Below are positions 20,412 through 23,652 of a stretch of DNA of 64,000 nt, in pieces. Below the pieces are notes generated by a model. That model did no database searches. It was given only the letters and a program-made list of their open reading frames with translations, and was not told the origin of the DNA. Source of the stretch: Flavobacteriaceae bacterium GSB9 (GTDB lineage: Bacteria > Bacteroidota > Bacteroidia > Flavobacteriales > Flavobacteriaceae); contig CP062007.1 of NCBI GenBank assembly GCA_022749295.1, positions 2,852,001 to 2,916,000 of the forward strand, written 5' to 3'. Positions within the stretch are counted from its first letter, which is position 1. Each line of letters starts with the position of its first letter. The translations under genes were made by a program, and so were the position numbers.

Positions 20412-20560
20412 CAAAAAAAAACTTAACCATCTAATTATCAATAGTTTTTTTGTTGTATATTTAAGCATCTCTCAATCCCTAATTATTTATGGCATAATCA
20501 AAGCCCTTAAATCTTAAAGTACCTAATAACACATTTATTAACTTTAATTTTTAACAGATT

Positions 20561-21391
20561 ATGAAAACAACCAATCAATTATTATTAGCAATAGTATTTG
20601 TGCTATTGTTGATTACACCAACAGTTAATTTCGCCCAAGAAGAATCACACAAAACACCTGCTTTTATTGCTGTCACCACCATGCACTGGAATATGGACAA
20701 GGAAGACTTTAGTATGGATGAGTGGAAAGCTGTTGAAAAGGAGTTTATTGACAAAGTAGTTAAAAAGAATGAATACATTCTTGGCGCATCGACTTACTTG
20801 CATGAATTTACTCCAGATAACACCGAATTGATTTATGTGCAAACCTTTGCATCATGGGACGATATGGGTAAGTTTGCCGAAAGAAATGCCGAGTTGGCTA
20901 AAGAAGCCTGGCCAGATGATGAAGCCAGAAAAGCTTTTATGGACAAGCGCTTCTCCTATTACGCAAATGAACATTCCGATGAGATTTATGCGCCACTTCC
21001 TGGAGCAAAACTTATGAAAGAGACGCCTGAAAAAGACATGTTGTGTTACGTAAGAAAAACCCATTTTGCTTTCCCAGAAGATGGTTCGCAGGAGGAATTT
21101 ATGGAAATGAGAAAAGAATTTATAGAAAAAATTATCAATAAAAATGAATATATAAAAGCGTACTATCCACACGTGCATGCTTGGGGTTCCGATAGAACAG
21201 AGAATTTGGAAGCATTCTTTATAGAATCTTGGGCCGATTTAGACAAGATGTACGATAGAAACCAAGAGCTAATGGAAGAGGCTTGGCCAGACGAAGAAGC
21301 CCGTAAGGAGGGAGGAAAGAAATGGAACAAGTATTTCACAGGTGTACATGGTGATTATATGTACAAATGGGTTCATGGACTATCTAAATAA
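20561..21391 (+). CDS. Secreted protein of unknown function with internal duplication (paralogue A)
   Basis: 276 residues; signal peptide to about residue 25 (NFAQ). The mature protein consists of two homologous halves of about 115 residues. Shared elements are EFIDKVVKKNEYI / EFIEKIINKNEYI, FASWDDMGKFAERNAEL / SWADLDKMYDRNQEL, EAWPDDEARK / EAWPDEEARK and HSDEIY / HGDYMY. The fold is likely alpha/beta with repeated aromatic and acidic positions, perhaps a dimeric alpha-beta barrel. I do not recognise the family. Followed by a terminator and by paralogue B. Confidence 0.8.
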   Translation: MKTTNQLLLAIVFVLLLITPTVNFAQEESHKTPAFIAVTTMHWNMDKEDFSMDEWKAVEKEFIDKVVKKNEYILGASTYLHEFTPDNTELIYVQTFASWDDMGKFAERNAELAKEAWPDDEARKAFMDKRFSYYANEHSDEIYAPLPGAKLMKETPEKDMLCYVRKTHFAFPEDGSQEEFMEMRKEFIEKIINKNEYIKAYYPHVHAWGSDRTENLEAFFIESWADLDKMYDRNQELMEEAWPDEEARKEGGKKWNKYFTGVHGDYMYKWVHGLSK

Positions 21392-21403
21392 CAATATATC
21401 ATT

Positions 21404-21431
21404 AAAAAAGGATGTTTCTACATCCTTTTTT
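21404..21431 (+). terminator. Terminator between the two paralogues
   Basis: AAAAAAGGATG (21404-21414) and CATCCTTTTTT (21421-21431), loop TTTCTA. Perfect stem with a T run, so the paralogues are transcribed separately. Confidence 0.85.
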
Positions 21432-21536
21432 AATGTAAATTTAGGTAGCTCTCAATATTTAGCTTTTTATCCTAGACATATTACCCTTAGTCTTAATAAT
21501 TTAATTAATTAACCAATATATTAACTCTTTCAGATT

Positions 21537-22334
21537 ATGAAAAAAATCAAACAATTATTTACGGTATTGATCACTATGCTTTTGTGCTTAAGCAGTCCTG
21601 TTTCCTTTGCTCAAGACGATTCAAAAAGGCCAATGTATATTTCGGTAACCACTACCTATTGGAGTGAGGATTACAAAGGCACTCCAGAGGAATGGAGGGC
21701 CGTTGAAAAGGAATATATGGAAAAAGTGATCAAAAAGAATGAATTTATTACGTGGTCAGGTTATTTTAGACATCTTTTTACAGAAAACAGTAACGAAGTT
21801 ATATATGCTCAAACTTACCCAAGTTGGGATGCGATTGATAAGGCCTCGGCAAGAAATGCAGAGCTTGAAAAAGAAGCTTGGCCAGACAAAGAAGCTCGTG
21901 AAGCTTTTCTTAAAAAGAGAAATTCTGTCTATTCAACTTTTCATTCCGATGAAATTTTTGCCACCATGCCCGGAGCCAAACCTTTAGAAGGTGGGGTGAC
22001 GGAAGATATGATTTTATATGTACGCCAAAATAAAATGGCATTTCCTGAAGACGGTAATATGGAAGAATGGGAGGCACTGCAAAAAAAAGTATTTGAAAAT
22101 GTTATAAGTAAGAATGAATATGTTAAGGCGTATTACCCTGAAAGACATGCTTGGGGTTCCGACAGAAGGGATTTTAATGAAGTTGTTTATGTAGATTCTA
22201 TGTGCGACTTAGAGAAGATGTTTAATAGATATCAAGAATTAATAAAAGAAGCATTAACAGAGGACGAACGTAAAGCTTACAATAAGTATTTTGGTCACCA
22301 TGGTGATTATCTTTACGTCCCAGTTAGGTTTTAA
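21537..22334 (+). CDS. Secreted protein of unknown function with internal duplication (paralogue B)
   Basis: 265 residues; signal peptide ending VSFAQ. Same two-half architecture as paralogue A: VEKEYMEKVIKKNEFI / LQKKVFENVISKNEYV, ARNAELEKEAWPDKEAR / RYQELIKEALTEDER, HSDEIF / HGDYLY. YYPERHAWGSDR matches YYPHVHAWGSDR of A. The upstream regions of A and B share CTCTCAAT and end in CAGATTATG at the start codon, so they may be co-regulated. WPDxEAR is lost in the second half of B only. Function unknown. Confidence 0.8.
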   Translation: MKKIKQLFTVLITMLLCLSSPVSFAQDDSKRPMYISVTTTYWSEDYKGTPEEWRAVEKEYMEKVIKKNEFITWSGYFRHLFTENSNEVIYAQTYPSWDAIDKASARNAELEKEAWPDKEAREAFLKKRNSVYSTFHSDEIFATMPGAKPLEGGVTEDMILYVRQNKMAFPEDGNMEEWEALQKKVFENVISKNEYVKAYYPERHAWGSDRRDFNEVVYVDSMCDLEKMFNRYQELIKEALTEDERKAYNKYFGHHGDYLYVPVRF

Positions 22335-22361
22335 CTTAATATCATGTGTAAAATTTGGACC

Positions 22362-22397
22362 AAAAGGATATCTTTAAAAGATGTCCTTTTGTGTTTT
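22362..22397 (+). terminator. Terminator after paralogue B
   Basis: AAAAGGATATCTT (22362-22374) pairs with AAGATGTCCTTTT (22378-22390) with one G-U, and is followed by GTGTTTTTG. It isolates paralogue B from the PhnA-like gene. Confidence 0.7.
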
Positions 22398-23220: not shown

Positions 23221-23652
23221 TTACATAGAAGTGTTTGCAATTACCTTCCATTTACCATTAATGTTTTTAAACACTACCATGAAGATGCCATCTGCATTAC
23301 CAACCTCGCGCTTAATATGGTATTCGCCCAATACATAGTAGGCGCCATCACTAATTTTGGTGACATCGTTGATTTTATAGCTTAATTTTCCGGTATGTGC
23401 TTCAGTTGGGTAGGCTTTTTGGTAACGCTCTAAGGTGTTGTGCCATCCATTAATTACGCCATGCGAGCTATAAAATTTAAGGGAATCACTCTTCCAATAG
23501 GCTTCCATAAATTCTTCTAAATTATTTTTAGACCACGCCAGGCGTTGCTTTTTTAAAACTTTGTTTATGGCCTTAACGTCGTCTTCAACTGATGTTTGTG
23601 AAAAGCTATTAAAAGCACAAAGCAACAATAAAAATATAACCAGTTTTTTCAT
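23221..23652 (-). CDS. Secreted NTF2-like (DUF4440/SnoaL-type) protein
   Basis: 143 residues with a signal peptide ending NSFSQ. The mature part has the NTF2-like cone pattern: INKVLKKQRLAWSKNNLEEFMEAYW, LKFYSSHGVINGWHNTLERY, YYVLGEYHIKRE, GIFMVVFKNINGKWKVIANTS. The fold is used by enzymes and binding proteins alike; no catalytic residues can be assigned. Located in the periplasm. Confidence 0.85.
   Translation of the reverse strand: MKKLVIFLLLLCAFNSFSQTSVEDDVKAINKVLKKQRLAWSKNNLEEFMEAYWKSDSLKFYSSHGVINGWHNTLERYQKAYPTEAHTGKLSYKINDVTKISDGAYYVLGEYHIKREVGNADGIFMVVFKNINGKWKVIANTSM

Follow-up and report, generated by a model that had tools for sequence, protein, structure and literature searches.

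Two adjacent genes, here called A and B, in the 64,000-nucleotide stretch of DNA that we analyzed (the window), from a marine-type member of the Flavobacteriaceae, encode exported proteins that each join two homologous modules in one chain. Structure prediction indicates with high confidence a fused dimeric alpha-beta barrel (DABB), i.e., a covalent pseudo-dimer, to which each module contributes one ferredoxin-like half. These proteins belong to a widespread, new, and unnamed family of a known fold. Taken as a whole, the explanation that we regard as probable is that of an exported fused DABB which arose by module fusion, was later duplicated as a gene, and carries two small-molecule sites.

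Gene organization and export

Genes A and B are intact tandem ORFs, each specifying a signal peptide and, after it, two mutually homologous modules ~115-128 residues long (Table 1), with no extra C-terminal domain after the second module. The first-pass annotation had described two adjacent secreted paralogues with separate terminators, and this description stands: the ORFs are present, their export signals are supported, and a terminator-like hairpin lies 3' of each gene. Gln26, which immediately follows the predicted cleavage site, is conserved in 98% of 82 homologues, fitting the Bacteroidetes Q-rule for signal peptidase I substrates (PMC10653852). The precursor would then cross the membrane through Sec, with signal peptidase I cleaving it just ahead of Gln26, and the mature product is likely a soluble periplasmic or exported protein.

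Table 1. Coordinates of genes A and B and of their parts within the window
Feature	Position	Strand	Remarks
Gene A leader	20491..20563	+	Conserved AT-rich dyad/hairpin reaching the start codon; R1 model, 59.8 bits
Gene A	20561..21391	+	276 aa; predicted exported fused DABB protein; ORF with AlphaFold2 model
Gene A signal peptide	20561..20635	+	Hydrophobic leader; predicted cleavage between A25 and Q26
Module A1	20651..21004	+	N70, H81, E89, H138, D140
Module A2	21005..21388	+	N195, H206, E217, H263, D265; also modeled alone
Terminator-like hairpin 3' of gene A	21400..21435	+	Scored on the minus strand; near-symmetric
Gene B leader	21470..21539	+	Homologous to gene A leader; R1 model, 31.3 bits, outside the training set
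Gene B	21537..22334	+	265 aa; 50% identical to its paralogue, gene A
Gene B signal peptide	21537..21611	+	Cleavage predicted from sequence between A25 and Q26
Module B1	21621..21974	+	
Module B2	21975..22331	+	Lacks SW-D and WPDxEAR; N, H, E, and H-x-D kept
Terminator-like hairpin 3' of gene B	22361..22391	+	

Origin of the four modules

The proposed internal duplication, which makes four modules in two genes, is supported by homology far beyond chance. Local scores of module pairs lie 14 to 51 sd above those of shuffled sequences, the weakest pair at 14 sd, and a profile built from independent single-module relatives recovers exactly four matches from the complete genome, namely, A1, A2, B1, and B2 (E 1.6e-25 to 5.4e-19). 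In hhalign comparisons, N-modules match C-modules at 99.7%, and single-module proteins match both at 99.8%. The motifs originally quoted for the module (KNEYI, SW-D, WPDxEAR, and HxDxxY) hold for A1, A2, and, with small changes (KNEFI, HSDEIF), B1; they fail in part for B2, which retains KNEYV and HGDYLY and has lost WPDxEAR and SW-D (SMCD). All four modules share a core made up of Asn, His, Glu, and His-x-Asp.

Corresponding modules of the two genes (A1-B1, 52% identity; A2-B2, 48%) are closer than the modules within one gene (A1-A2, 42%; B1-B2, 32%), and the internal duplication is therefore older than the gene duplication. Module phylogeny, recommended at first pass for dating these events, implies the same order: an internal duplication, single and old, preceded the duplication of the gene. 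The N modules all group in one clade (support 100/98), the C modules are set apart, with the sole intrusion of a very long branch leading to a single-module protein, and three of four single-module proteins fall between the N and C modules, a topology that supports a single old fusion as the source of the two-module form. Since gene B of the window and its Aestuariivivens counterpart are sisters in both halves (100/100), the gene duplication predates the split of these two lineages. The Aestuariivivens locus (L014, 4488-6206) holds orthologues of both genes in reversed order, B then A, which reflects rearrangement or separate insertion. The fused form would have arisen by one tandem fusion of a secreted single-module ancestor, presumably working as a homodimer, and a later gene duplication would have produced A and B, with promoter and leader carried along. 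The family thus offers a case of homodimer-to-fused-chain evolution in which both states are still extant.

Family status and distribution

The module had been thought to lie outside known families, and neither Pfam, NCBIfam, nor PDB sequences contradict this view. Pfam, NCBIfam, and PHROGs profiles returned only subthreshold noise, with no Pfam family above its gathering score, DABB families included; a Pfam scan of one homologue (L007) likewise brought no profile above gathering score, and PDB sequence searches were empty or noise. A clear match to a characterized enzyme family was looked for and not found in these searches, no relative turned up in plasmid and viral collections, and literature searches on this kind of protein yielded nothing specific.

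Of 299 Flavobacteriaceae genomes sampled, 72 contain the family, a few with the single-module form only; the two-module gene is found in about a quarter of the sample. The 61 loci fetched from public genomes range from Aequorivita and Gelidibacter to Flavivirga and Algibacter. The gene is single in most genomes, and tandem pairs are also present in Aestuariivivens (L014) and at L044/L089. Exported single-module relatives of ~145 aa are scattered over a few other Flavobacteriaceae and other Bacteroidota families. In-frame stops or truncations mark some relatives (L124 5214-5522; G277 C37:53496; G292 C3:54635), and their sequences indicate that copies decay in places.

A conserved leader with a candidate hairpin

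The two genes also have similar upstream sequences, as first proposed: gene B's leader is recovered by a leader model whose training set did not include it, and the leaders of genes A and B are the model's sole matches genome-wide. Conservation across genera extends over the 75 bases 5' of the start codon, within which lies an imperfect dyad, TAAAGTAGTAT...ATACTAACTTTA. At the 11 inner pairs of this dyad, 86% of cells pair, versus 24-54% in slid controls, and two-sided changes occur at 6 of them, in few cells. At one pair, 18 sequences have G-U in place of G-C, which favors an RNA over a DNA site. The two arms co-vary: in a partner-swap test on a dereplicated set of 21 leaders, arms pair better with their own partner than with a swapped one (p 0.001), a difference not seen in a control region (p 0.31). 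Taken alone, the outer helix, which covers the start codon, falls short of significance (p 0.09 after dereplication). RNAalifold found no consensus pairs in the plain leader alignment, so that the hairpin rests on the pair count for the named structure and on the partner-swap test. Nothing at the locus scored above gathering in Rfam. A regulon sharing a short leader motif was considered and rejected, as pattern counts were not above the reversed control and the leader model finds only two genes. As a gene-specific regulatory hairpin, the leader is a good candidate and no more; if functional, it would be a new regulatory RNA of this kind.

Predicted fold

The AlphaFold2 model of gene A's product, based on a 43-sequence alignment, comprises two beta-alpha-beta-beta-alpha-beta units packed as a barrel (mean pLDDT 90.9, pTM 0.80). 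The suspicion of a dimeric alpha-beta barrel is borne out by PDB structural matches of both the full-length and the single-module predictions. The ferredoxin-like unit is evident in each from secondary structure and matches alike. The best matches of the full model are fused DABB chains, led by 2pgc (Z 15.7, rmsd 3.0, 197 aligned) and followed by SOR 2cb2 (Z 15.4), 3mcs (15.0), 3f44 (14.5), and 3gn6 (13.4), and the alignment to them spans both halves of the predicted structure (residues 31-276). Chlorite dismutase and coproheme decarboxylase rank lower (Z about 10-11). The C-module alone (pLDDT 91.1) matches NIPSNAP 1vqy (Z 9.7), MhuD (9.0), chalcone isomerase (8.8), and olivetolic acid cyclase (8.7), as well as methylmuconolactone methylisomerase and hydroxynitrile lyase structures. 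These scores against single DABBs all lie close together. From the matches as a whole, the superfamily is clear and the nearest family within it is not. The shared fold in itself shows no function, as DABB proteins include enzymes, heme binders, and noncatalytic proteins.

Conserved residues, neighbors, and function

Across 82 homologues, N70, H81, E89, H138, and D140 of the first half and N195, H206, E217, H263, and D265 of the second are 98-100% conserved. In eight single-module proteins, the equivalent His, the acid eight residues on, and His-x-Asp are invariant. The His ends strand 2, the Glu or Asp begins strand 3, and His-x-Asp begins strand 4; read from this strand topology, the conserved residues probably gather in one cluster at one sheet edge. 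As the same set recurs in both halves, each chain likely has two equivalent, putative polar sites. Of the earlier suggestion of a ligand or metal site built on His and acidic residues, the near-invariant residue set is confirmed, in both halves, and binding keeps the status of an inference. Each half's Asn/His/acid/His-x-Asp set would bind a small molecule, perhaps together with a divalent metal; it would most likely catalyze acid-base or cyclase/isomerase-type chemistry or else sequester a ligand in the periplasm. Some of the invariant residues may be structural. For a protein that none of the family libraries searched covers, we hereby propose a fold, an evolutionary history, and two sites that can be tested.

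Gene order around the two-module gene is stable (HemN-like radical SAM, cyclase family, DUF4260, DUF4230, YjbR, the gene, PhnA-like), and a function read from the HemW-like, YjbR, PhnA-like, or DUF4230 neighbors was rejected, this being conserved housekeeping synteny. An exported NTF2-like gene (23221-23652, opposite strand; DUF4440 just under threshold) lies 0.9 kb downstream in the window, and a DUF4440/NTF2-like gene is kept near the family in 32 loci, some with a changed left side. Single-module genes are adjoined by exported SnoaL (L122, L127, L128, and L130) or DUF4440 (L131 and L132) at 6 of 11 loci, as assigned by profile scans for L122, L127, and L131 and by sequence similarity for L128, L130, and L132; a cupin stands beside them at two loci (L122 and L126). 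Together, SnoaL, cupin, and other pocket-protein neighbors are suggestive of small-molecule handling. Another exported two-module family without a Pfam match also sits next to single-module genes (L126 2903-3670, L127 5878-7454, and L130 5483-6259) and recurs elsewhere in the window's genome (C1:754995-755738); with its HGDY motif, it looks like a second fused alpha/beta family.

Alternatives to small-molecule sites differ in how they accommodate these data. The conserved residues might merely hold the fold or an oligomer together in a noncatalytic stress or envelope protein similar to the plant boiling-stable SP1, whose structure (1si9) matches that of the module (Z 8.5); the tandem copies and the strongly conserved leader would be in keeping with an abundant protein. 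We consider this unlikely, since invariant His/Asp near strand ends in both single- and two-module forms would be unusual as purely structural residues and the single-module relatives are found alongside SnoaL and cupin proteins, which bear pockets. Less credible still is a heme- or porphyrin-binding DABB of the chlorite dismutase (Cld), coproheme decarboxylase (ChdC), or IsdG/MhuD type that serves as a periplasmic heme carrier or degrader. Matches to MhuD/HmoB and to Cld/ChdC structures and the conserved His in each half speak for it. The proximal His of Cld/ChdC lies in the C-terminal half; His206 and His263 are present in the C-half of gene A's product. Against this reading, porphyrin binding in Cld, ChdC, and DyP is confined to the C-terminal half (PMC7611857), whereas the conserved residues recur in both halves here; Pfam gave no match to the Cld, ChdC, or IsdG/MhuD-type families, and no heme-uptake gene was seen in the neighborhood. 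A SOR-like non-heme iron oxygenase is very improbable: SOR, also a fused DABB, is among the best structural matches and His and acids are conserved, but the SOR iron ligands His86, His90, and Glu114 and the essential Cys31 (PMC7398979) have no clear counterparts. Across 82 homologues, helix 99-116 after strand 3, which corresponds by topology to the place of His-x3-His in SOR, shows no conserved His, and no Cys column exceeds 26%. In addition, hhalign to SOR gives 0.3%, and a single iron site is described for each SOR chain, versus an identical residue set in both halves here.

Exported DABBs with two small-molecule sites thus remain our preferred reading. A bolder extension of it, which we put forward tentatively and hold to be doubtful in its entirety, is that the proteins are exported DABB enzymes of a new Bacteroidota family, each chain having two equivalent active sites. 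These enzymes might belong to an exported set of pocket proteins (SnoaL, cupin, and DABB) acting on one periplasmic class of small molecules and, in Flavobacteriaceae, be under the control of a gene-specific RNA hairpin in the leader, extending as far as the start codon.

Comparison with known DABB systems

Single-module NIPSNAP and ABM/Dabb proteins have the module fold in common with genes A and B (1vqy, Z 9.7; MhuD and olivetolic acid cyclase, about 8.5-9). Despite this similar fold, the NIPSNAP profile (PF07978) has no match in the genome, and the ABM profile (PF03992) matches three other genes and neither A nor B, with hhalign to ABM at 1-11%. Chlorite dismutase and coproheme decarboxylase share the fused DABB (Z 10-11) but hold porphyrin in their C-terminal half only and have no profile match to genes A and B. 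The SOR chain is likewise a fused DABB (Z about 15), from which the products of genes A and B differ in lacking its iron ligands and catalytic Cys, in being exported, and in their two predicted equivalent sites. The two-domain DABB proteins of unknown function 2PGC, 3MCS, 3F44, and 3GN6 differ at the level of sequence (about 6-11% identity, no sequence-level match) and are likewise built from two fused ferredoxin-like halves (Z 13-16).
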